Below are positions 522 through 17,849 of a DNA stretch of 20,473 nucleotides, one piece after another. Each line of letters starts with the position of its first letter. Position 1 is the stretch's first letter. The translations under genes and the position numbers were made by a program. The stretch comes from a virus: positions 1 to 20,473 of IMG/VR virus record IMGVR_UViG_3300017786_000195; one strand, 5' to 3'. Below the pieces are notes generated by a model that was given only the letters and a program-made list of their open reading frames with translations, did not search any database and had not been told where the DNA came from.

Positions 522-3338
522 TTATACTTCTTCTAGCATGAATCTGTATGATTTACCATTTCTTCTATTCTTCAAGAATAGATCATGTTCTCCCTCTTCA
601 ATCAAGTAAGAACCCCATGATTGGTCAATGGTGTTACCACCTTTCCATTCATTGTTCAAGTCAATATCAGAACTGTATACGTTAGCCCAGCGTGTTCCAC
701 TTGAACCTAAGTTCTGAGTACCGTTGGCAGAAGGTATAATACTACCCGCCATAGTCAACGTACCAGTAAACGTATCAGAAGTATCTGATCTTAAGAAGGA
801 AGCAGAACTGATACCATCAAGAGTATCAGCATCAAGACCTGATCCAGATCCGTCAACAGTCTTGATAAGGTTCAAGATTTCTGATGCTGTCTGATCGGCA
901 GTCGCTGCACTCTCAATTCCGTCTAATTTTGATCCATCACCAGCAACGTCACGCCCATCAACTGTACCTGATACAGTTATGTTACCAGTAACAGCAAATT
1001 GTCCGGCAGTTCCAACATAAACTGTTGTGTTATCAGCCGTACCTGTGATTGTACCGTTTGAACCAGTATCTGTTACAGCAACGTTAGTATCTAAAACTGC
1101 GATTGTTGTGCTATCAACTGCTGTTGATGATGTGTTTGTTACACGACCTTTTGAGTCAACAGTAATGATTGGAATTGCAGTTGCAGAACCAACTGTTCCG
1201 GCAGATACACCTGAGTTTGCAAGTGTAACCACACCACTAGCACTAGCAGTAAGATCACTTGATGCAGAAGACCAAATGTATTTCTTGACTCTAGACATGT
1301 CGGAACGTCTATTTGTTCCACCACCTCCATCATCAATTAGCATCTCGTCAGCATCTACAATGTCAGCACCTATGTCTGTACCACCATCTATATTGACTGA
1401 TGCTAGATCAACGACAACTGCTGAACTCAATGCTGTTGCACTAAGTATCTGAGTGTTATTGACCTTCAATACCTTACCTGATGCAAGGTTTATATTTTCT
1501 GATGCACCCCAGTTATCGCCAGTTGCTTCAAAATTCCATGTCTTATCTCCGTCTCCTGAGTCAACAGTCAATCCAGCACCGTCAGCAGCCGCATCATCAG
1601 CAGCTCCTGTTGCAACTTGGAAGTTTTTGTCATCTATAGCAACTGTGGTACTATTAATGGTAGTTGTAGTACCATTGACTGTCAAGTTACCCGAAACTGT
1701 CAAGTTATCATCAACTGTGGTTGTACCACCTGCTGAGTCGATAACTAAGTTTCCTGAAGATGTGTCGATCTCGTTGTTATTGGTGACACCAATTTGAACG
1801 TTATCAATACTTGCTCCACCGTTAGCATCAAGAGCACCAGTTATAGTAACACCTGCTGAGAAGGCAGCTGCTTCTGCAACTGTCAATCCGTCAAGTGTGG
1901 TTGCACCATCAACATCAAGTGTAGATGAGAAGGCAGCTCCCTCTGCTACTGTTAGTCCATCAAGTGTGGTCGCACCGTCAACATCAAATGTTCCTGTGAC
2001 TGAACCGTTACCACTAACTGTTATGTTATCAGATACTGCTACAGTTCCACCTGCAGAATCTAATGTAAGATTACCCGAAGATGTTGATACTGTGTTACCA
2101 TTTACAGTAACGTTATCAGCAGCAATGTCTCCTGTTACAGTTAGAGTTCCAACAATGTTTGTTGCATCTAAGTCTGTTGTGCCATCTACATCTAAGTTTC
2201 CGTTGAAGTCAGCATTTCCAGCCAATGTCAAGTTAGATGCCATGTCAACAGCACCGTCAATATCTACAGCATCTAAGTTAGAAGTACCATCTACATCTAA
2301 GTTTCCGTTGAAGTCAGCATTACCAGCTAATGTCAAGTTAGATGCCATGTCAACAGCACCATCTATATCAACAGCATCTAAGTTTGTAGTGCCATCAATG
2401 TCTATATTACCAGATATATCAAGACTAGCTGCGGTTATTGTTCCTGCGAAGGTAGCATTACCATTGTTGAAAATGGTAGCGTTTTCCCCGATTGGTGTGT
2501 CTGCACCAAGAACGTTGACCCCTGCTATCTCAATACCTACGTTGTGTAAGTTAGATGTTCCTGTCTTTACAGTTGTCTCATTGATGGTAACGGTTCCATT
2601 ACCGAATGATGCGATACCAGTAACACGCATATCGCCACGAACTATGACGTCAGTATTACCTACACCAACTGTTAGTTTAGAACCATTAGCGTCTAGAGTA
2701 CCAATGATTGCTGCATTTTCATCAACATCTAGTGTATCAATGTGAGCAGTTCCATCAAGATATAAGTCTTTCCACTCTAATCCTGATGCACCTAAATCAC
2801 GAGCATTATCTGTGCTAGGAGTCAAGTCACTATCAAAACGACCTGTTGCGGTGATAGTATCACTTGTAGCATTACCAAGGTCGGTGTCTCCAGTTACAAC
2901 AACATTCGTTGTTGTTAAGATAGAACCGTTGAATGTTAAGTTTGCAGAATCCTCTATTTCTCCAGAGGTTCCTGCGATTACTACACGATCATTTGTTAGA
3001 TCGCCAATTTTAGCAGTATCTGCTAGTAATGCGTCAACGTTTGCGGTGCCATCAATGTAAATATTTCTCCACTCTTGGGTAGAACTACCCAAATCATAAG
3101 TATTATCATCATCAGGTATAATGGATGAATCAACATCTGCACCAAACACAACATTATCCGACGCTGAGTCTCCTAAAGTTAGTGTTCCTCCATTGAATGT
3201 TGTAGTACCTGTAACCTCAAGGTTACTGTACATGAAAACATCTGCTGCGAATGTAGAAACTCCAACGTGAGAAGATAGACCGGCAACAATTTGTTGGTTC
3301 TTTCCACCTACTTTAGCCAGTTCTCTTGCCCTAGACAT
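522..3338 (-). CDS. Large repeat-rich tail fibre protein (938 aa)
   Basis: This protein is built almost wholly of short beta-type repeats rich in Thr, Asp, Gly, Val and Asn, consistent with an elongated trimeric fibre. Motifs in order: YDLGSSTQEWRNIYIDG near residues 81-97, a KIGDLTNDRVVIAG...GEIEDS module near 110-132, a second DLGASGLEWKDLYLDG copy near 181-196, two nearly identical 35-residue repeats (NLDAVDIDGAVDMASNLTLA type), two 23-residue repeats (TTLDGLTVAE type), AIPIITVDSKGRV, then GDGSKLDGIESAATADQTA and GLDADTLDG, motifs I know from cyanophage fibres. The last 72 residues (NLGSSGTRWANVY to the FMLEEV end) match the C-terminus of the 628-aa fibre, so this is probably a shared cap or trimerisation module. 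The gene lies directly downstream of the two oxygenases, with a perfect TATAAATA 31 bases before its ATG; the ribosome-binding site is weak. Fibre identity is well supported; its place in the virion is not known. Confidence 0.85.
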   Translation of the reverse strand: MSRARELAKVGGKNQQIVAGLSSHVGVSTFAADVFMYSNLEVTGTTTFNGGTLTLGDSASDNVVFGADVDSSIIPDDDNTYDLGSSTQEWRNIYIDGTANVDALLADTAKIGDLTNDRVVIAGTSGEIEDSANLTFNGSILTTTNVVVTGDTDLGNATSDTITATGRFDSDLTPSTDNARDLGASGLEWKDLYLDGTAHIDTLDVDENAAIIGTLDANGSKLTVGVGNTDVIVRGDMRVTGIASFGNGTVTINETTVKTGTSNLHNVGIEIAGVNVLGADTPIGENATIFNNGNATFAGTITAASLDISGNIDIDGTTNLDAVDIDGAVDMASNLTLAGNADFNGNLDVDGTSNLDAVDIDGAVDMASNLTLAGNADFNGNLDVDGTTDLDATNIVGTLTVTGDIAADNVTVNGNTVSTSSGNLTLDSAGGTVAVSDNITVSGNGSVTGTFDVDGATTLDGLTVAEGAAFSSTLDVDGATTLDGLTVAEAAAFSAGVTITGALDANGGASIDNVQIGVTNNNEIDTSSGNLVIDSAGGTTTVDDNLTVSGNLTVNGTTTTINSTTVAIDDKNFQVATGAADDAAADGAGLTVDSGDGDKTWNFEATGDNWGASENINLASGKVLKVNNTQILSATALSSAVVVDLASVNIDGGTDIGADIVDADEMLIDDGGGGTNRRSDMSRVKKYIWSSASSDLTASASGVVTLANSGVSAGTVGSATAIPIITVDSKGRVTNTSSTAVDSTTIAVLDTNVAVTDTGSNGTITGTADNTTVYVGTAGQFAVTGNITVSGTVDGRDVAGDGSKLDGIESAATADQTASEILNLIKTVDGSGSGLDADTLDGISSASFLRSDTSDTFTGTLTMAGSIIPSANGTQNLGSSGTRWANVYSSDIDLNNEWKGGNTIDQSWGSYLIEEGEHDLFLKNRRNGKSYRFMLEEV
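1858..1995 (-). repeat. Two tandem 69-bp direct repeats in the 938-aa fibre gene
   Basis: Two adjacent 69-base units (about 1858-1926 and 1927-1995) each encode 23 residues of the form LDVDGATTLDGLTVAE followed by a short Ala/Ser-rich end. They differ mainly at synonymous or conservative positions, which points to an in-frame duplication of a fibre-shaft unit. Confidence 0.8.
2182..2391 (-). repeat. Two tandem 105-bp direct repeats in the 938-aa fibre gene
   Basis: The sequence beginning CCATCTACATCTAAGTTTCC on the plus strand at 2182 recurs at 2287, an exact 105-base period (35 codons), with only a few differences between copies. Each encodes a NLDAVDIDGAVDMASNLTLA-type unit ending NGNLDVDGT. 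A degenerate start of a third copy follows. The near identity of the copies indicates a recent in-frame duplication or gene conversion. Confidence 0.85.
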
Positions 3339-3369: not shown

Positions 3370-3377
3370 TATTTATA
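3370..3377 (-). promoter_or_regulatory. Putative late promoter TATAAATA (perfect T4 consensus)
   Basis: The minus strand reads exactly TATAAATA, the T4 late promoter element. It overlaps the TAA stop (3373-3375) of the upstream oxygenase gene and lies 31 bases before the ATG of the 938-aa fibre. Among the octamers seen in gaps this is the only perfect T4 match. It would let the fibre be transcribed apart from the oxygenases. Confidence 0.6.
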
Positions 3378-4239
3378 CCACTTTTATCCTAAACGCTAAT
3401 CTTTGTGTTATTTCTGGCGCAGATATCCTTGGTGGACTTGCTGTATGTGTGGTATTATGCTTATAAACTATGATACGACCTGGTTTATTACCAACAACTT
3501 TCTCCGGCCATCCTAAGTCATACTTACGTTTCCAGTGCTTTGCACCTGTCACATCATCATTGAAAAATGTCAGTTCACCTCCCCAATCAGGTTGCCACAC
3601 TTTATTCAATACGAACAATACAGTATAATAAGAGTCTTCTGGATTTGCTTTGGCATCTGTATCCTTGTGCATTTGACCACTTCTCTCCCCTATCTTATCA
3701 TTCTTCATAGGGTCTGTAGAACGACCATTTAGGTAGCAAGTGAAATCAGTTATTGAACTTGGCACGTCATACTTATCGTAATAAGACTCGCCATTTATAA
3801 AATAACCATTGGGTCCTGACAGTCCTGCTTTGATTGACTCCGCCAGACCAGCATCTAAAGATGCTTTACCACCAAATATCTGAGTGTTGATACTATCAAA
3901 AATATCGTATGCTTCTTTACTATGTCTCTTGGTGCTGGCATCATCCCAACCAATAGGATGTCTGTACATAGAGAATCTAAACAGAGATAACATGTCCTCT
4001 ATTGGTGTCTCTGTACCTAAAATATGTTTACTACTACTCTTCCCTGATAGGTTAGGGATATATTCTTGAATGGAGACTTTTCTTGGTACTCCTGTTCTTT
4101 GTAATTGTTTCTTCTCGTCTATCAAAGGAGTTATACCAACCCACTTACAATACCAACTCATTTTTTGAGCAGCATCATACATGGCATGATGTAATTCCTC
4201 GCTGACAAGCCCATCATAGACTTCTACGTCAACCATCAT
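3373..4239 (-). CDS. 2-oxoglutarate/Fe(II)-dependent oxygenase, copy B (288 aa)
   Basis: A non-haem iron dioxygenase of the prolyl-4-hydroxylase-like double-stranded beta-helix type; such enzymes couple 2-oxoglutarate decarboxylation to hydroxylation of a protein or other substrate. Visible signature: HxD iron ligands in GQMHKDTD (His191, Asp193), the strand motif DWGGELTFFND near 218-228, a distal histidine in HNTTHTASPPR (His265 likely, His261 possible), and Arg280 or Arg284 in QRLAFRIKV as the probable 2-oxoglutarate contact. An extended N-terminal half shares the block SKHILG.ET and FRFSMYRHPIGWDDAST with copy A. The start is an ATGATG pair at 4239 or 4236 with AGAGGT just upstream. It lies 18 bases downstream of its paralogue and directly before the 938-aa fibre. 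The substrate is unknown; hydroxylation of fibre residues is inferred from context only. Confidence 0.85.
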   Translation of the reverse strand: MMVDVEVYDGLVSEELHHAMYDAAQKMSWYCKWVGITPLIDEKKQLQRTGVPRKVSIQEYIPNLSGKSSSKHILGTETPIEDMLSLFRFSMYRHPIGWDDASTKRHSKEAYDIFDSINTQIFGGKASLDAGLAESIKAGLSGPNGYFINGESYYDKYDVPSSITDFTCYLNGRSTDPMKNDKIGERSGQMHKDTDAKANPEDSYYTVLFVLNKVWQPDWGGELTFFNDDVTGAKHWKRKYDLGWPEKVVGNKPGRIIVYKHNTTHTASPPRISAPEITQRLAFRIKVV

Positions 4240-4257
4240 ATACCTCTGTTGATATAT

Positions 4258-5094
4258 TTAGTCTTTGATTTTTATCCTGAAAGCAACCCGTAGTGACATC
4301 TCTTCTGCATCTATTCTTGGTGCCATAGTACTATGAGTAATATTATGTTTATACACTATAATACGACCTGGTACATTACTAACCACCTTTGAAGCCCATC
4401 CCAAATTATATCCTCTCTTCCAATGTTTTGACCCTGTATCCTTGTCATCATAATATAACAAGTCTGCACCCCATGTAGGATACCACTCCAAGTTAGCAAT
4501 GAACAATACAGTATAATAAGGATCTTCTGGTTTTGCTCTAGGATCTGTGTCCTTGTGCATTTGTCCTGATCTTTTACCAATACGATCACCAGACATAGGG
4601 TCAGTAGATCTAGCATTGATGTAAGAAACGAAACCATTTCCTACTTTGTTCTTTGGAACTCCGTACTTAGTATAATAATCTTCTCTGTTCTTATAATAAC
4701 CCTTGAACCCTGACAGTCCATTGATACCCTCTTTCAGTCCCTCATCAAGAGATCCTTTTCCATCTAGTAACGTATCGTTGATAGTATTCCATAATTTATA
4801 TACTATGTTAGAGTAGAAGCATGTGCTTGCATCATCCCACCCAATAGGATGTCTGTACATACTAAAACGGAAGAGATCAACCATATCTGATATGGCAGTT
4901 TCTTTTCCTAAAATGTGTTTACTACTAGTCTTCCCGTCAATTGCAGGAATATACTCATTTATTGTTTGAGTTGTCCTGTTGTGAGTCTCAATTCCTATCC
5001 ACTTTGTGTATAACGACGCACCTTGAATCCAATCATAGACCTCACGATGCAACTCTTCGTCAATAACACCATCAAAGATCTGAAAATCTTCCAT
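4258..5094 (-). CDS. 2-oxoglutarate/Fe(II)-dependent oxygenase, copy A (278 aa)
   Basis: A tandem paralogue of the next gene, alignable over nearly its full length. Iron ligands are visible as GQMHKDTD (His180, Asp182) with the distal histidine in HNITHSTMAPR (His254 most likely) and Arg269 or Arg273 near the C-terminus for 2-oxoglutarate. The usual GGEL strand is altered to TWGADLLYYDD (about 208-217), so this copy has drifted in a region that shapes the active site. The shared block near 58-91 (SKHILGKET, FRFSMYRHPIGWDDAST) and the KHWKRGYNLGW segment near 224-233 are strongly conserved between the copies and are not part of the minimal oxygenase core. It is the first gene after the largest gap in the window, which holds a promoter-like TATAAATC and a dyad. 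No clear Shine-Dalgarno sequence precedes the ATG. Catalytic activity is likely; the substrate is unknown. Confidence 0.85.
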   Translation of the reverse strand: MEDFQIFDGVIDEELHREVYDWIQGASLYTKWIGIETHNRTTQTINEYIPAIDGKTSSKHILGKETAISDMVDLFRFSMYRHPIGWDDASTCFYSNIVYKLWNTINDTLLDGKGSLDEGLKEGINGLSGFKGYYKNREDYYTKYGVPKNKVGNGFVSYINARSTDPMSGDRIGKRSGQMHKDTDPRAKPEDPYYTVLFIANLEWYPTWGADLLYYDDKDTGSKHWKRGYNLGWASKVVSNVPGRIIVYKHNITHSTMAPRIDAEEMSLRVAFRIKIKD

Positions 5095-5154
5095 AAGTTA
5101 CAGCAAAATTATTAAGTTGTATCGAACTACTACTGGCAGTTGTTCTGTGTGCCT

Positions 5155-5216: not shown

Positions 5217-7103
5217 CTAGGATACAGGGGTTAGTGATATTTTATACTTCTTACCTGTGAGATTATTTATCATGAATATATCATCCTTTCCTTCTTGAAG
5301 TGTCCAGTTTCCTTCACTTCCATCTACGGAATTACCGCCATTTCCTACGTTACTAAAATGCATATCAGCAGTATATACGTTTTGCCATCTGCTGCCCACA
5401 GCACCTAAATTTCTTGTTGCATCTGCGTCTGGTAACATATTACCATTCAACGTAACATCACCTACACTTATGTTAGGAACACCCGTTAGACCTGTAGCAT
5501 TACCACTCAATGTGGCAGCTGTCAGCGTGTTAGTGCCTGGGTTGTATTTGAGTTCTACGTCAGTTCTTACATCCTCATTACCAGTTGCAGTATCTACGAA
5601 CGTGACGAAATGATCAGCAGCTGTTGTATTAGTTGCAGTCAACTCGACTTTATCAGCAATCACACTGGTAAGTGCTGAACCATCAACTGCTGCTAATGCT
5701 CCTGTAATCTGTCCGCCAGGTACATTTGTTAGTCCACTACCAGAACCACTAAAGGTTCCTGATGTTGTGATACCTGATATCTTCAACCCTGCTTGCGAGA
5801 AGACTGCTACTTCTGTGTTATTGACAGTAATAGTTGTCTTCAACGGTGCAGTTTGAACTTGTGTGTTTGTATCTTGTATCGCTGTCGCATCTATTCCTGA
5901 AAGGTTTGATCCATCTCCATAGAAATGCGATGCTGTTATAATACCACTGGCATTGACTGTGGTAGCACCAAGTTGACCTACAGTAGAAACACCTGATGAG
6001 TTTATATCACCAGTTACATCTCCTACTAATCTTCCGGTGAATCCGGAGCCTCCGACTCCATCAATCCCTGCCACAAAACCACCAGCACTAGTGGTAAGAC
6101 CAGATACATTAATATTGGTTCCATTGAAAAACGCTACGGTTGAGACGCCAGCAGAATTGAGTGATCCAAGAAATCCAAAACTACCGACTGGGGCTACGAA
6201 CCCTTGTGATGTTGTTATAATACCAGTTGCCTGAACTGTCTCTACAAAGAATTGATCGGCTGTTGATATACCAGATGAATTGAAATCTCCTGTAAGATTT
6301 CCTGTGACATCTCCTGTTACATCTCCGACAACATCTCCAGTGACATTTCCTACAACGTTTCCAGTTATATTACCATAAAAACCTGCACTTGCGGTAACTC
6401 CAGCACCAGCTAAATCACCTTTGAATCCTAACGCTGATGTTACTATACCTGTTGCATTGATATGTTCAAACTCGCCTGTTACTCCAAATGATGCTATACC
6501 CACTGAAACTTGATTTGCAGTTAGTCCTGCACCTATTCTCAATGTTCCTACATTACCAAATCCAAATGTGCCATCTGCGTTCTGTATGTTAGTTCTCGCA
6601 TCAGCAGCAGAGAATATACTAACAATACCAGTTACACCTGGCTCTTGGTAGAACGATAATCCGGCACCCACTTTGAATGTCGTAATACCTGTGGCTCTAG
6701 TAAAGTTACTAGCATCCATTACGTCGTTGGTTGACCTGTTTATGGTCATTGTAGCGATACCAACCTCGATACCACCACCCAGATCCAACTTCATCTGGTT
6801 TACAGTAACACCGTTACCTCTGAAATTCAATTTAGTAATTGAACCAGCAAAACCAGTCGGTGTTATCTCATCTTTCTGTACTTCTATACCTTCTACACTT
6901 CCTGATGGTGCACCAGAAGGTGCAGCCCAATATCTTTCTCCCTCAGTAGTACCATAAAGTACAAAGTTATTATTATCAGGCAACCCCAAGTTAGGTTCCG
7001 CCTCTTCCAATCCTAGGAAAGCAGGTAGACCTGGTGTTTGTTTTCTATGTGTTGATAGTCCAGCGTAGGATGTAACCCCAACCTTCCCAGATAATAATCT
7101 CAT
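5217..7103 (-). CDS. Repeat-rich tail fibre protein with shared C-terminal module (628 aa)
   Basis: A long fibre-type protein. The N-terminal part (about 1-60; KVGVTSYAGLSTHRKQ, then LPDNNNFVLYG) is distinct and could be the virion attachment region. The middle alternates units such as ATGIVTSALGF, SSGVSTVGQLG and ASGIITASHFYGDG with a four-residue GDVT/GNVT repeat run. The region GDGSNLSGIDATAI followed by a low-complexity stretch leads to the last 73 residues (MLPDADATRNLGAVGSRWQNVY ... DIFMINNLTGKKYKISL), which match the end of the 938-aa fibre. The ATG at 7103 lies one base after the stop of the 112-aa gene, implying coupled translation. Its stop precedes the 122-base gap, so it probably ends the transcript segment that starts at the giant collar protein. 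Fibre identity is well supported; which fibre it builds is unknown. Confidence 0.82.
   Translation of the reverse strand: MRLLSGKVGVTSYAGLSTHRKQTPGLPAFLGLEEAEPNLGLPDNNNFVLYGTTEGERYWAAPSGAPSGSVEGIEVQKDEITPTGFAGSITKLNFRGNGVTVNQMKLDLGGGIEVGIATMTINRSTNDVMDASNFTRATGITTFKVGAGLSFYQEPGVTGIVSIFSAADARTNIQNADGTFGFGNVGTLRIGAGLTANQVSVGIASFGVTGEFEHINATGIVTSALGFKGDLAGAGVTASAGFYGNITGNVVGNVTGDVVGDVTGDVTGNLTGDFNSSGISTADQFFVETVQATGIITTSQGFVAPVGSFGFLGSLNSAGVSTVAFFNGTNINVSGLTTSAGGFVAGIDGVGGSGFTGRLVGDVTGDINSSGVSTVGQLGATTVNASGIITASHFYGDGSNLSGIDATAIQDTNTQVQTAPLKTTITVNNTEVAVFSQAGLKISGITTSGTFSGSGSGLTNVPGGQITGALAAVDGSALTSVIADKVELTATNTTAADHFVTFVDTATGNEDVRTDVELKYNPGTNTLTAATLSGNATGLTGVPNISVGDVTLNGNMLPDADATRNLGAVGSRWQNVYTADMHFSNVGNGGNSVDGSEGNWTLQEGKDDIFMINNLTGKKYKISLTPVS
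6282..6374 (-). repeat. 12-bp tandem repeat coding for GDVT/GNVT units
   Basis: About eight 12-base units encode GNIT-GNVV-GNVT-GDVV-GDVT-GDVT-GNLT-GDF. Glycine recurs at every fourth residue, unlike collagen's every third. This fits a tightly wound beta-solenoid or triple-stranded shaft segment. Many units keep the core GTNACATCTCC-like bases on the plus strand, showing tandem duplication at DNA level. Confidence 0.8.
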
Positions 7104-7104
7104 G

Positions 7105-7443
7105 TTACTTTGCGTTCTCTAGTATACTAATAATACACTTCATAGTGTTGTTATTGTCTCCCTCAATTTTCAGGATATCTCCTGTTTCCATAACAAGACG
7201 ACCCTCAATGAATGACATTGCATCCTGATGAGGTATTCTAGCGTTTTTGACGATTTCTGTATCAATTGATGATCTACTGTGCTTGACAGTAAATGATGTA
7301 ATTGATGAACCTTGTCCGACGTTTGATACGTTACCGTATATGACAAGTGATGCTACACCAGGAGGGCAAGTGTATATACCCACTGCTGCGTCAGTCACCA
7401 CATGTGTAATCGTTCTGAATTTATTTAATGGTATTGCAGCCAT
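7105..7443 (-). CDS. Small beta-sandwich virion structural protein (112 aa)
   Basis: It begins MAAIPLNKFRTITHVVTD and continues YTCPPGVASLVIYGNVSNVG ... IPHQDAMSFIEGRLVMETGDILKIEGDNNNTMKCIISILENAK. This YTCP.G...(V) ... GRLVLE.GD.LK layout is one I recognise from small phage structural proteins often encoded beside fibre genes; an all-beta fold is expected. No catalytic motif is seen. The ATG at 7443 follows the upstream stop with no gap (TAAATG), and a strong AGGAGG in the end of the upstream gene lies about 10 bases before it, fixing this start. The high-affinity site suggests it is made in larger amounts than its neighbours. It may be a fibre adaptor or decoration protein; that is inference. 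Confidence 0.72.
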   Translation of the reverse strand: MAAIPLNKFRTITHVVTDAAVGIYTCPPGVASLVIYGNVSNVGQGSSITSFTVKHSRSSIDTEIVKNARIPHQDAMSFIEGRLVMETGDILKIEGDNNNTMKCIISILENAK

Positions 7444-10098
7444 TTACATTGGTCCTCCTAATGCTATTATCAATGGTGTGAGTGTTGCTTGGATACTCTT
7501 ATTGAATGAGTCTCCGGTTATAGTACCAGTTTGTTGGTTGATAGTAAAACCATCTCCAACCTTTAGATTTCCTCTCTCATCGGTAGATGTATAAACAACT
7601 CTACCTCCATCCTCAGATACTATTTCATTCTCTGGTACTGTAACACCACCGTTTCTAGGTAGTGCAGCTGGTATGGTATGACCCGAACCAACATATTCAA
7701 ATGTGTAGGATGATGCAAGAATCAATGATTGTCTTGCAAAAGGAACCGTAGATCCAACTCCAACGTTAGCTGGAAGAGTTTGATCAATCGTTACTGTAGA
7801 AACACCAGCAGTAACAGGTGTCGCACTATTTATAGTAAAATAACTAGGTCCAATCTCAGCAGTGGCGAGTGCAGTTATACCAATACCAGGTGCTGCTATT
7901 GAAACTGTCGGTGTGGATCTGTATTGAGATCCAGTTGCGAACATATTGATAGCAGTTATACTACCAAAACCACTAACAACTGCTGTTCCTTCTGCTTTCG
8001 ATCCATTAGGTCCGGACGGGTTGTCTATACTAACAACAGGAGGATTAGCAGAAGTGTAACCAGAACCTGGATTTGTTACGTTTACCTTTATTATTTCATT
8101 AAACTTCTCACCAAGATATAATACCTGTCCTGAGTATGGTCTCTGTGTCAATCCTGACACCACCAAGATGTTATCTTCTTCTACTGCTGTTGCTGTAAGA
8201 ATACCTGTCTGAGTGACCGTACCTATTCCTGATGCAACTAAACCAAATGTACCAAAGGAGGAGTTAGAGTTGTTGAGGTCACACTGTCCACCTGATGTAC
8301 AACTAACTGCATACTCATCACATACAGTGAATATTGAAACCAACTGTGCATAACCATCATTAGATATAGTAACACCGATACCACCTTGGTTATACTGTGT
8401 ATATGAATCAACAACCATTGACTTAGTGCCATTGGTATGATCTCCATTTATCCTCATACCGATGCTATCAGGTACAAAGTTTGTACAGTTTCTAACGTAA
8501 GGAGACTGAGTTATAATACCACTAATACGAGCATGACTACCTGCATCTCCTACATTGAATGTTATAGTATCATTGGTATGTGATGTGATAGCAGTAAATA
8601 TACCAGCTATTGGGTCGGATGCTCTTGGATATGGATGGTTAGTAGCATAATAATCCATCTCACACTTGAAGTTTAGTGCTGCAGTTACAATGCCCACTGT
8701 GTTAGAGTTGTTTAGCCCGTGTCCTGCGGACGTCACAGTAGTAACACCTGATGTTGGATCGTACGATATCGCTGTAGGTGTTAGTGCGTTACCAGCATGC
8801 CAGTTAGGTCCTACCTTGACACTATCCACGCCCTTTACAATACCAACATTGACAGTTATGGTATTACTTGTGAATGATGAAATAGTAAGAGCAGTATTGT
8901 GTGCTGGATCTCCTGCTCTTGGATAAGTATGACTTGTTGCGTGGTTATCAGCATCGCAGGTGAAGGATAACTTATCAGTTCCTATGGTTATAGTATTATT
9001 AGTATCAAGACCATGACTGTTTGATGTCAAGACTAACACACCAGTCAGTGGGTTGTAAGCTGCTCCCTGAACTGCACCTGTCCCACCACCTGTAACTGTG
9101 TACGCATCAGCAACTGTTCCACCATTATATGTGTGAGTTCCTGTATCCTTGTTCCATCTATGATTGTTGACAACACCACCTGGTGGGAATGTTACCATTG
9201 CTGCTGTGTTCGCTGCACCAACAAATGACATGTTCTGCAGTAAAGCACCGTTATGTACCTCAAATAGATCCTGTCCTATATTTGAAGGCATGATCTGAGT
9301 ATTTCTTAGATCATCTCCATCTATTGATACGTTTCTTGGTACGAAGATTGGGTTATTCTCTGGATATATACCACCTGCTACTCTTATAACATCACCTGCT
9401 TTTGCTACTCCACACGCTGCCTTGACAGATCTCTTAGCAGTTGATAGAGTCTTACCATCAGCAGTGTCATCTCCATCTTCCGCAACATAATATATGTTGA
9501 GTGTTGACGCACCAGCACCAACCCATTGTGTCTTACCATCATTATCTGCTGCTAGTACTGATCCACCAGCTCCTACTGTAGCATTAGAGTCACGAAGAAC
9601 TCCATCAATTATTACCTCTCCCTTGACATCTAAAAGATATTCTGGTTGTGTACTACCAATACCTACTCTATTAGTAGAATCATCATATACTAATTGACCT
9701 GCACCACCAAATTTTCCGTCGGATTTTTTATACTGAACCTGTGTTTTTAATCCCGATGCGTCTGTCTGTATGTCCGCACCAGCAGACCATGAAACACCAG
9801 TTCCAACTGATATAAGAACGTTATTATTTGCACCAGCACCCTCGTTGCCATCATATAATTTCTTTCTTATAATAAGATCTTTATTGAAGTCAATGTCTTT
9901 ACCAGGTTGAGTACTACCAATACCCACCTGCCCAGCTGCTACGACTCCATCGAAATTGGCAGTGAGTGCTACATCTAAACCGTATTTTGGATCAGTTTTA
10001 CCAATACCAGTTCGGTTAGTGTCAGCTTCAACTACTAGAGCGTCATCTCCGACCTCTAGACCTTTTTCAACTGCAAATTTCTTATTGACTGACGCCAT
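7444..10098 (-). CDS. Fibre/plate-like structural protein with beta-helix region (884 aa)
   Basis: The N-terminal part (1-170) carries fibre motifs GIGKTDPKYGLDV, VGIGSTQPGKDI and VGIGSTQPEYLLDV. Residues about 200-295 (NIYYVAEDGDDTADGKTLSTAKRSVKAAC ... GDVIRVAGGIYPEN) resemble the first turns of right-handed beta-helix (pectate-lyase-like) proteins. A repeated domain follows (about 347-419 and 445-517, each with HGL and YPR..DP). Near 595-616 SCTSGGQCDLNNSNSSFG matches a segment of the 1847-aa protein. A double GxGY/GSQY module spans about 675-750, and YTFEYVGSG ... RVVYTSTDERGNLKVGDGFTIN (798-853) matches a region of the 1847-aa protein. AAGGA lies about 10 bases before the ATG. It probably forms part of the tail tip with the upstream giant protein. 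No polysaccharide-degrading catalytic site can be identified by eye. Confidence 0.8.
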   Translation of the reverse strand: MASVNKKFAVEKGLEVGDDALVVEADTNRTGIGKTDPKYGLDVALTANFDGVVAAGQVGIGSTQPGKDIDFNKDLIIRKKLYDGNEGAGANNNVLISVGTGVSWSAGADIQTDASGLKTQVQYKKSDGKFGGAGQLVYDDSTNRVGIGSTQPEYLLDVKGEVIIDGVLRDSNATVGAGGSVLAADNDGKTQWVGAGASTLNIYYVAEDGDDTADGKTLSTAKRSVKAACGVAKAGDVIRVAGGIYPENNPIFVPRNVSIDGDDLRNTQIMPSNIGQDLFEVHNGALLQNMSFVGAANTAAMVTFPPGGVVNNHRWNKDTGTHTYNGGTVADAYTVTGGGTGAVQGAAYNPLTGVLVLTSNSHGLDTNNTITIGTDKLSFTCDADNHATSHTYPRAGDPAHNTALTISSFTSNTITVNVGIVKGVDSVKVGPNWHAGNALTPTAISYDPTSGVTTVTSAGHGLNNSNTVGIVTAALNFKCEMDYYATNHPYPRASDPIAGIFTAITSHTNDTITFNVGDAGSHARISGIITQSPYVRNCTNFVPDSIGMRINGDHTNGTKSMVVDSYTQYNQGGIGVTISNDGYAQLVSIFTVCDEYAVSCTSGGQCDLNNSNSSFGTFGLVASGIGTVTQTGILTATAVEEDNILVVSGLTQRPYSGQVLYLGEKFNEIIKVNVTNPGSGYTSANPPVVSIDNPSGPNGSKAEGTAVVSGFGSITAINMFATGSQYRSTPTVSIAAPGIGITALATAEIGPSYFTINSATPVTAGVSTVTIDQTLPANVGVGSTVPFARQSLILASSYTFEYVGSGHTIPAALPRNGGVTVPENEIVSEDGGRVVYTSTDERGNLKVGDGFTINQQTGTITGDSFNKSIQATLTPLIIALGGPM
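8548..8766 (-). repeat. Internal domain duplication, copy 2 (884-aa protein residues 445-517)
   Basis: It encodes YDPTSGVTTVTSAGHGL ... FKC..DYYATNHPYPRASDP ... NDTITFNVG, the second copy of a roughly 75-residue domain. Copy 1 lies at 8842-9063. The copies align along their length but have diverged at DNA level, so the duplication is old. Confidence 0.75.
8842..9063 (-). repeat. Internal domain duplication, copy 1 (884-aa protein residues 346-419)
   Basis: It encodes YNPLTGVLVLTSNSHGL ... FTCDADNHATSHTYPRAGDP ... SNTITVNVG. The Cys-x-x-Asp and TYPR..DP positions are shared with copy 2. This type of domain is familiar from cyanophage structural proteins; its function is unknown. Confidence 0.75.
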
Positions 10099-16375: not shown

Positions 16376-16403
16376 ATTATACCATTAATCCTTAGTATTG
16401 CAA
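16376..16403 (-). promoter_or_regulatory. Possible sigma70-type promoter before the 62-aa gene
   Basis: On the minus strand TTGCAA (16398-16403, four of six matches to TTGACA) and a perfect TATAAT (16376-16381) are separated by 16 bases. The predicted start falls roughly 10-15 bases before the ATG at 16353. AT-rich sequence gives such pairs by chance, and no late octamer is seen in this gap. Confidence 0.3.
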
Positions 16404-16756
16404 ATAATCATGTATGTTCCCTTGATAGGTCCACTGGCAGCATTTTTTACAGTTGCTTTACGCCCATAGTGTATATTCTCAACGTATAGTTCTTGGAATG
16501 TACCATGTGGGGTAATCATTATAGTAAGACTGTCAAGGTTTAGCTTATTATTCCATGCTTTAGGGAAATTTATGACCCCATCTGCTGGAATATCGCCTTT
16601 GTCTCTTACAGCACTCCCCATGGTTGCATGATCTCCACGTTGTTCTGCCATTGGTGGTTCCTCCTCTTGGATGTAAATTTTGGCTTTGTCGATTCTTATT
16701 TTATGATATGTCTCACCCCAAATTTTTAGTTTGGAGCCGTCACCTTTACCGTTCAT
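16385..16756 (-). CDS. Small virion-type beta protein, paralogue 2 (123 aa)
   Basis: The C-terminal two-thirds (about 52-120) align closely with the preceding 107-aa gene: DGVINFPKAWNNKL, IMITPHGTFQELYVENIHYG, RKATVKNAASGPIKGTY. The FP.AW.NK ... LTP...Q.LYVE.I pattern is one I know from uncharacterised cyanophage virion proteins. The N-terminal 50 residues (MNGKGDGSKLKIWGETYHKI, ending near EEEPPMAEQRGDHATMG) are unlike the paralogue and suggest a distinct partner-binding part. A start at Met36 (MAEQRGDH), which has AGGAGGAACCACCA-like sequence just upstream, is a serious alternative and would give a protein of about 88 aa closer to its paralogue in layout. The longer start is kept because its ATG overlaps the upstream stop (TAATG). 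Function unknown. Confidence 0.7.
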   Translation of the reverse strand: MNGKGDGSKLKIWGETYHKIRIDKAKIYIQEEEPPMAEQRGDHATMGSAVRDKGDIPADGVINFPKAWNNKLNLDSLTIMITPHGTFQELYVENIHYGRKATVKNAASGPIKGTYMIICNTKD

Positions 16757-17079
16757 TATTCAAATGATTGAGTATTACTATAGTTACCCATCTTTGTTTC
16801 TATTTCTTCACCATCATTTAGGTTAGCGATAAGGAAATACCATCCTTGAATAGTTCCTCCGGCAGCATTTCTAACGATTGCCTGTCTTCCATACTGTATA
16901 GACTCAACATATAGTTGTTGATAAGTCTTGTATGGAGTTAGTATGATAGAAATAGTATTAGTTTTAATCTTGTTTGCCCAAGCTGTTGGGAATTCAATAA
17001 CGCCATCAGAAGATAACCTACCTTTCGCTCTTACAGCTAGGTTATAGGTTTTTGATGATGACTCCAAATTGACTGACAT
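16756..17079 (-). CDS. Small virion-type beta protein, paralogue 1 (107 aa)
   Basis: It begins MSVNLESSSKTYNLAVRAKG and shares SSDGVIEFPTAWANKI, IILTPYKTYQQLYVESIQYG and RQAIVRNAAGGTIQGWYF with the next gene. The length, lack of hydrophobic segments and alternating pattern suggest a compact beta fold. The C-terminal NLNDGEEIETKMGNYSNTQSFE is polar and probably flexible. AAAGGA lies five bases before the ATG and an AATAAATA octamer precedes it, so this gene seems to open its own transcript segment. Its stop overlaps the ATG of the paralogue by one base (TAATG). It may be a minor tail or baseplate protein; no function is assigned. Confidence 0.75.
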   Translation of the reverse strand: MSVNLESSSKTYNLAVRAKGRLSSDGVIEFPTAWANKIKTNTISIILTPYKTYQQLYVESIQYGRQAIVRNAAGGTIQGWYFLIANLNDGEEIETKMGNYSNTQSFE

Positions 17080-17105: not shown

Positions 17106-17113
17106 TATTTATT
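17106..17113 (-). promoter_or_regulatory. Putative late promoter octamer AATAAATA
   Basis: The minus strand reads AATAAATA, overlapping the TAA stop (17112-17114) of the 245-aa gene and lying 26 bases before the ATG of the 107-aa gene. The position matches the other late-type octamers. An identical octamer occurs inside the hub gene at 18510-18517, so confidence is moderate. Confidence 0.45.
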
Positions 17114-17849
17114 ATCTGGCGTATGCAGGATCGTCATAGTTCTCATCTGGGTAGTCGTTGTAACTGTCTCCCTCATATTCCACCACAAGTGGGTTCACAT
17201 CCTTCCTCTCACCATAAACATGATAGAAGCAATCAGTCACACCCTCAAGAGTTATCTTACTATCATCCCACTCCTTTACTATTATATCCTGTGCTGCTCC
17301 TACTGGTTGTGTCTGTACAGTAATAGTGTCAGTCACCACAAGATCTTTCCAATAATCTGGTAGTGCAATCTCATTATCCTGAGTCCTACCTCTGAAATAT
17401 ACACCAACCTCAGGTCCTTCAAGACAGGCATATCTCAGTCTGTGACCCTCACCCTTGGTAGGATGAACCATATCAAATGGTTTTGGTTTAGCGTCAGCAA
17501 CACCAAATCTGGCAGCGAGTCTACCCTTATTACCACAATCTACAGCACCTGTGACATATACATCTCCATCAATATAGACTGCATTTACTGCTTTCTCGCC
17601 ATTTATCTCTACATCACCCTCTACCTGCAACGCTCTACCAGATACGCCAGGTGCAAAACCTCCTAAATCAGTACCTATGTTGAGTGTTCCTTTTGCGAAA
17701 CCACCCTTATGTTTACCAATAAATGCAGGTCCTGATGCAGCAAGAGTACCAGTAAATGGTTTGTCACCATCTAGTGTATCTACTGATTGATCGACATGAG
17801 GTTCGGGACCTATAACGATCTTACCTGAGTGAATGTCTGGTATATTCAT
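17112..17849 (-). CDS. Virion structural protein with C-terminal HPTKGEGHRLRYACLEGPE domain (245 aa)
   Basis: The first 110 residues are a Gly/Asp/Val-rich repeat region (GTLNIGTDLGGFAPG, ALQVEGDVEINGEKAV, YIDGDVYVTGAVDCGN) of fibre or spike type. Residues about 123-157 (KPFDMVHP, GHRLRYACLEGPEVGVYFRG) belong to a C-terminal domain common in phage fibre-like proteins and some bacterial surface proteins, followed by a beta region (ALPDYWKDLV, TITVQTQPVG). The end (about 225-245) is acidic and Tyr/Asp-rich and probably flexible. The ATG overlaps the spike gene's stop (ATGA), so it is translated with the hub and spike. It may extend or cap the baseplate hub, or be a small fibre. The Ser-Lys catalytic pair of self-cleaving fibre chaperones cannot be recognised by eye. 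Confidence 0.75.
   Translation of the reverse strand: MNIPDIHSGKIVIGPEPHVDQSVDTLDGDKPFTGTLAASGPAFIGKHKGGFAKGTLNIGTDLGGFAPGVSGRALQVEGDVEINGEKAVNAVYIDGDVYVTGAVDCGNKGRLAARFGVADAKPKPFDMVHPTKGEGHRLRYACLEGPEVGVYFRGRTQDNEIALPDYWKDLVVTDTITVQTQPVGAAQDIIVKEWDDSKITLEGVTDCFYHVYGERKDVNPLVVEYEGDSYNDYPDENYDDPAYAR

Follow-up and report, generated by a model that had tools for sequence, protein, structure and literature searches.

A tandem pair of 2OG-Fe(II) oxygenases in a fixed tail-fibre slot of marine cyanophages: most likely late protein hydroxylases whose leading candidate substrate is a virion tail protein

Introduction

A virus record of 20,473 bases, referred to here in its entirety as the window, contains two adjacent genes for Fe(II)/2OG oxygenases with a tail-fibre gene on either side, and this arrangement raises the question of what a pair of such enzymes modifies at a fibre locus. 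Several 2OG oxygenases are usual in a T4-like cyanophage, with 24 in S-SCSM1, and roles in DNA repair and in 2OG/NtcA control have been proposed for them (PMC2984593, PMC3037559, PMC9602691). A preliminary description of the window proposed instead that the pair serves post-translational fibre maturation, each copy acting on a particular fibre or on a C-terminal module that the two fibres share.

Two Intact Oxygenase Genes between Two Fibre Genes

The genes of the locus, all on the minus strand, are arranged as follows.

522–3338 (−), fibre B, 938 aa
525–764 (−), C-terminal shared module of fibre B, residues 859–938
3373–4239 (−), 2OG-Fe(II) oxygenase copy 2, 288 aa, orthologous to the single copy of sister phages
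4258–5094 (−), 2OG-Fe(II) oxygenase copy 1, 278 aa, from a sister lineage that was seen in no phages other than the window and two of its near relatives
5217–7103 (−), fibre A, 628 aa, putatively in one late transcription unit with the oxygenases
5223–5462 (−), C-terminal shared module of fibre A, residues 548–627
7105–7443 (−), 112-aa conserved structural neighbour, the anchor of the survey
7444–10098 (−), 884-aa structural protein with a late-promoter-like site upstream, the putative start of the unit 884-112-fibre A-oxygenases

The preliminary description of two adjacent, intact oxygenase genes with an HxD motif, a distal His and an Arg was borne out in position as well as in residues. Aligned along their whole length, the two proteins have 56% identity (E 1e-114), and the HxD...H metal triad, H190, D192 and H264 (numbered in the 288-aa protein from its second Met), is invariant in 45/45 relatives. 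A basic residue for 2OG binding is present in the last strand, the candidates being Arg279, which every fibre-locus copy has and which is Lys or Arg in many other relatives, and Arg283, which is found in 44 of the 45 relatives, the remaining one having an unread X. The 288-aa protein matches Pfam 2OG-FeII_Oxy_3 with 32 bits (cut-off 27); the 278-aa protein alone gave no match in the Pfam scan, and it carries all of the ligands and has a predicted model with the fold of the 288-aa copy. The extended block beyond the minimal fold is likewise real: it lies outside the Pfam core and marks the subfamily, and phrog_274 is matched only weakly, in the core. The dN/dS values of oxygenase orthologues (0.13–0.57) indicate purifying selection. 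By all signs in the sequences, both oxygenases are real, conserved and enzymatically intact.

The pair was also correctly placed between two fibres of common C-terminus, since the last 80 aa of fibres A and B form a module of 41% identity (E 3e-19); no collagen-repeat match was obtained for the window fibres with Pfam. The view of the oxygenases as the sole evident enzymes agrees with a Pfam scan of ten window proteins, in which only the 288-aa oxygenase scored above the curated cut-off, and a gp5-like hub carries a lysozyme name through PHROGs only. Elsewhere in the window, two tandem small proteins (16385–16756 and 16756–17079, minus strand) are 52% identical over 79 aa, and both match PHROG 17490, as does a 245-aa protein at 17112–17849, in an apparent serial duplication of one domain.

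A Fixed Slot in an Uncultivated Cyanophage Clade

The psbA gene is found on related contigs, some of them also oxygenase-bearing, and together with the gp5-like hub it assigns these phages to a T4-like cyanophage clade; the window is a marine cyanomyovirus contig of an uncultivated clade. A tblastn search of 50,697 phage records (E 1e-3) gave no oxygenase match in isolated phages, and a pattern search of bacterial and archaeal genomes returned 20 matches, none of them a relative. Relatives of the 112-aa neighbour were found in 86 phage records, most of them from Synechococcus phages, and the use of this protein as an anchor made the fibre region readable at 49 loci. An oxygenase lies exactly between fibres A and B at 25 of these, and the two fibres are directly adjacent, with no oxygenase, at the other 24; some of the surveyed contigs are near-copies, and hence the locus counts do not represent independent events. 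On the core-gene tree (884-aa and 112-aa proteins), the presence of the enzyme amounts to one change. Among ten longer records, all of which may be fragments, six contain an oxygenase only at the fibre slot and four contain none in the whole record. A subfamily locked to one fibre slot in this manner leaves few candidate substrates to consider, and mass spectrometry of virions can address the question.

The survey bears directly on the assignment of one enzyme to each fibre. The two-copy state is not universal, as five of the oxygenase-bearing loci have two copies and 20 have one (three of the latter are cut by a contig end), and both fibres are likewise present at the 17 uncut single-copy loci; thus, a separate enzyme for each fibre is not needed, and that part of the proposal was not supported. 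The shared module fared no better as a specific target: essentially all fibre ends that could be read carry it, whether the enzyme is there or not, and it is therefore no marker of modification. The co-occurrence of enzyme and module, which had been suggested as a point for survey, is accordingly not strict, the module being equally present without the enzyme.

Old Paralogues in a Recombining Cassette

In the oxygenase tree, all 288-type copies, those of the single-copy phages among them, form the sister group of the 278-aa lineage, and the two lineages thus separated before the window diverged from the single-copy phages and its nearest relatives. A recent tandem duplication was rejected, since the 278-aa copy falls outside all of the 288-type copies. 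The only other kind of pair, found at loci L061 and L063, combines two quite different oxygenase lineages. Monophyly of all fibre-locus oxygenases gave an AU p of 0.127.

Synonymous divergence was compared between the oxygenases and the fibres. Between the window and L045, dS is 0.73–0.75 for the oxygenases and 0.25–0.30 for the fibres; between L061 and L063, it is 0.09–0.15 for the oxygenases and 0.54–0.65 for the fibres. The oxygenases have thus diverged more than the fibres in one comparison and less in the other, and there is consequently no sign of tight co-evolution with them. We infer that the cassette contains paralogues of long standing that were differentially lost, and that homologous exchange has taken place in it; judged from these divergence values, its recombination is independent of the fibres. 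Because the two copies diverged long ago and belong to a cassette that recombines, they probably differ in the site they target or in their efficiency.

This independence also favours an unlikely alternative, namely that the enzymes are host-directed protein hydroxylases for which the fibre slot is merely a convenient position for late-expressed cargo, the possible substrates being a translation factor (as for PPHD and EF-Tu), a ribosomal protein (as for YcfD) or a surface protein. That the enzyme is never seen elsewhere in the clade's ten longer records speaks against such a role, and further evidence on it is given below.

Late-Promoter-Like Sites and Putative Transcription Units

Two sites resembling T4 late promoters were located next to the oxygenase genes.

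3370–3377 (−), TATAAATA, T4-late-promoter-like site ahead of fibre B, where a new unit starts
4255–4261 (−), CTAAATA, 16–22 nt before the second oxygenase (288 aa), present only in the pair-bearing phages of the lineage

In the window alone, the counts of TATAAATA and CTAAATA are not above chance; NTAAATA was counted in the distinct upstream regions of each gene across the related loci, with the expectation taken from shuffles. The motif was found upstream of fibre B in 36/38 cases (6.3 expected), of the 884-aa gene in 37/37 (3.5 expected), of a 1847-aa gene in 34/34 (2.6 expected) and of the gene after fibre B in 26/26 (3.2 expected). It is absent upstream of the 112-aa gene, near chance upstream of fibre A (7/42; 5.0 expected) and at chance upstream of the oxygenases (2/22; 2.0 expected). 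With sites before the 884-aa gene and fibre B and chance levels before fibre A and the oxygenases, the enzyme appears to belong to the unit of fibre A. These upstream motifs suggest that 884-112-fibre A-oxygenases form a single late unit and that fibre B has a unit of its own. A late unit would be an odd time for host reprogramming, which counts against a host-directed enzyme.

A Candidate Pseudoknot in the Oxygenase Leader

The region ahead of the first oxygenase contains a further candidate element.

5123–5154 (−), candidate H-type RNA pseudoknot, 32 nt, two interleaved 4-bp stems, 28 nt before the first oxygenase start

The candidate occurs at ten loci, 21–49 nt ahead of an oxygenase (besides the window, L003 4105–4136, L047 11229–11260, L061 12025–12056 and six more); it is absent at several oxygenase loci, where the spacer is only 1–7 bp. 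At L061 and L063 it lies between the two oxygenases, and thus it tracks the oxygenase rather than fibre A. In the stems, 100% of cells are paired and changes on both sides are seen at 3/8 pairs; the covariation score was reached by 0/500 shuffles and by no slid version, a result somewhat favoured by the drawing of the structure from the very sequences that were scored. A scan of IMG/VR found 11 stretches with all eight pairs, all on contigs of the oxygenase clade, and five other pattern matches without full pairing. No Rfam family reached its gathering score in the window, L052, L061 or L087, and nothing convincing was found in Rfam around the candidate. The covarying pseudoknot candidate constitutes a separate, testable element with a putative regulatory role.

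Predicted Fold and the Nature of the Substrate

AlphaFold2 models of the two oxygenases (mean pLDDT 86.3 and 88.7) and their structural matches support a double-stranded beta-helix fold for both. In VIA-align, in which rows no more than 1 Z apart are regarded as tied, PHD2 is at or near the top for both models (Z 14.8–14.9, 172–173 residues, 3.0 A), with the Pseudomonas P4H (PPHD) at Z 13.7–14.0 and a Dictyostelium PHD at Z 13.2–13.9, and all 50 VIA-align entries among the matches listed are protein prolyl hydroxylases. The best sequence-profile matches in the PDB are likewise prolyl hydroxylases (Dictyostelium PHD, E 0.005), at an identity of 10–15%. Ranked by E-value in Foldseek, OkaE is first and the best rows include the small-molecule enzymes OkaE, FtmOx1 and PtlH, so that the fold favours, without proving, a protein substrate; a fold shared between models and known structures does not fix the substrate.

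These Foldseek rows support a hydroxylase acting late on the host envelope, a glycan or a small molecule, for example on receptors against superinfection or in a change of metabolite, and the slot beside adhesion genes may suit receptor modification. The uniform VIA-align entries argue otherwise, as does the window itself, in which no envelope or sugar gene was identified with Pfam or PHROGs, and we consider this explanation improbable. PPHD, on the other side, is the closest bacterial structure, and its hydroxylated substrate is EF-Tu (PMC4543633), which lends some weight to a host-directed protein hydroxylase.

Several families or proteins named "DNA endonuclease V" (phrog_274 and the BFVD entries A0A0E3EVN2, A0A0E3IAM0 and A0A127KLI7) match the oxygenases in the 2OG core or fold, and the label is thus probably wrong for some cyanophage proteins.

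Relatives at Other Genome Positions

The oxygenase family has other homes and uses. Relatives are found beside ribonucleotide reductase (class II and class I RNR; L008, L022 and L124), beside clamp-loader genes (L010, L011, L120 and L121) and beside AAA/radical-SAM genes (L116 and L119). In an unrelated 244-kb phage contig (L123, 3–8369), a relative lies between a minor-tail-like protein and a subtilase, and a collagen-repeat tail fibre is encoded nearby. At L010 and L011, several different 2OG-type oxygenases are clustered beside clamp, clamp-loader and Hsp20-like genes, and an unrelated phage (L127, 112–2162) has a tandem pair of its own, in which both proteins are long and only distantly related to the window oxygenases (334 and 349 aa).

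Homologues regularly lying away from fibre genes, beside nucleotide or lipopolysaccharide modification genes, had been named in advance as evidence against fibre maturation; this holds in part, as several adjoin RNR or clamp-loader genes, which is not decisive for the fibre-locus clade. Such neighbours fit an AlkB- or TET-like oxygenase of repair or base modification, acting on nucleotides or DNA and displaced into the fibre locus, and the oxygenases of Syn9 lie beside uvsX and uvsY, with a proposed role in repair (PMC2984593). The fold ranks with the prolyl hydroxylases, and the fibre-locus clade is in the putative late unit rather than in a replication region; we regard this origin as slightly less probable still than an envelope or small-molecule substrate. 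The scattered positions also agree with a host-directed protein hydroxylase, against which stands the second phage (L123) with a relative among its tail genes.

The 2OG-consuming modulation of the host NtcA nitrogen response has been suggested for cyanophage 2OG oxygenases generally (PMC3037559), and the psbA genes that mark these contigs as cyanophage agree with it; it is very unlikely here, as it leaves the fixed fibre slot, the late unit and the conserved extended block unexplained.

A Late Protein Hydroxylase as the Most Likely Function

Phage fibre chaperone genes often adjoin fibre genes. A fibre chaperone or virion component that has no catalytic activity and employs the fold as a scaffold would fit such a slot, and it is the least credible of the readings considered, since the metal ligands and the Arg are invariant in relatives and a pure scaffold would not need them.

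Fibre maturation itself survived in part. The slot, the putative late unit with fibre A, the fold and the relative among the tail genes of L123 speak for it, and the loose co-occurrence, the recombination and the RNR and clamp-loader neighbours speak against it. The pair probably acts late in infection, decorating a protein of the virion or of the host. Our preferred explanation, held tentatively and at somewhat below even confidence, is that the two are late protein hydroxylases of the P4H/PHD structural type that most likely act on a co-made virion tail protein, the leading candidate substrate; the late co-expression, the protein substrate and the virion target are each putative. Under this model, both enzymes would be active and would be made from the late transcript of fibre A, initiated at the putative promoter ahead of the 884-aa gene. 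Their target would be a side chain, perhaps that of a proline, in a tail protein of the virion that is made concurrently, with fibre A, fibre B and the adjacent structural proteins as candidates, and its hydroxylation would take place before or during assembly. The two copies would probably differ in target site or efficiency, as their divergence suggests, and not serve one fibre each. A stricter version, in which these are the clade's dedicated late hydroxylases, controlled by the pseudoknot leader and modifying either the tail fibres of the phage itself or tail proteins next to them, is doubtful.

If the proposal holds, it would represent 2OG-dependent post-translational fibre maturation in a bacteriophage; we found nothing in the literature on phage prolyl hydroxylation of fibres. 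With a fibre as the target, O2- and iron-dependent hydroxylation would become a step of phage assembly and perhaps of host recognition in the ocean.

Comparison with Known Systems

The nearest solved folds, PPHD (EF-Tu) and the HIF hydroxylase PHD2/EGLN1, have the same set of metal ligands as the phage oxygenases; the phage proteins are only 10–15% identical to them and have extra regions and family-specific motifs. The closest predicted viral folds (TM about 0.67) are the uncharacterised proteins A0A6J5LYG4 and A0A6J5T324 of uncultured Caudovirales phages, which are 20–22% identical to the window oxygenases. Mimivirus L230, a collagen lysyl hydroxylase, is also a virus-encoded, collagen-modifying 2OG hydroxylase (PMC5802723, PMC9546862); it belongs to a different subfamily and to a eukaryotic giant virus, and the window fibres lack a collagen-repeat match. 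The cyanophage 2OG oxygenases of T4-GC 104/240/412/611 share the Fe(II)/2OG fold and occur, several per genome, in T4-like cyanophages (PMC3037559, PMC9602691), but those of PMC3037559 are shorter (537–768 nt) than the window genes, and those of Syn9 are near uvsX/uvsY (PMC2984593), unlike the pair in the fibre slot. 2OG oxygenases are common in cyanophages, and the long, fibre-linked subfamily is a new form of them.
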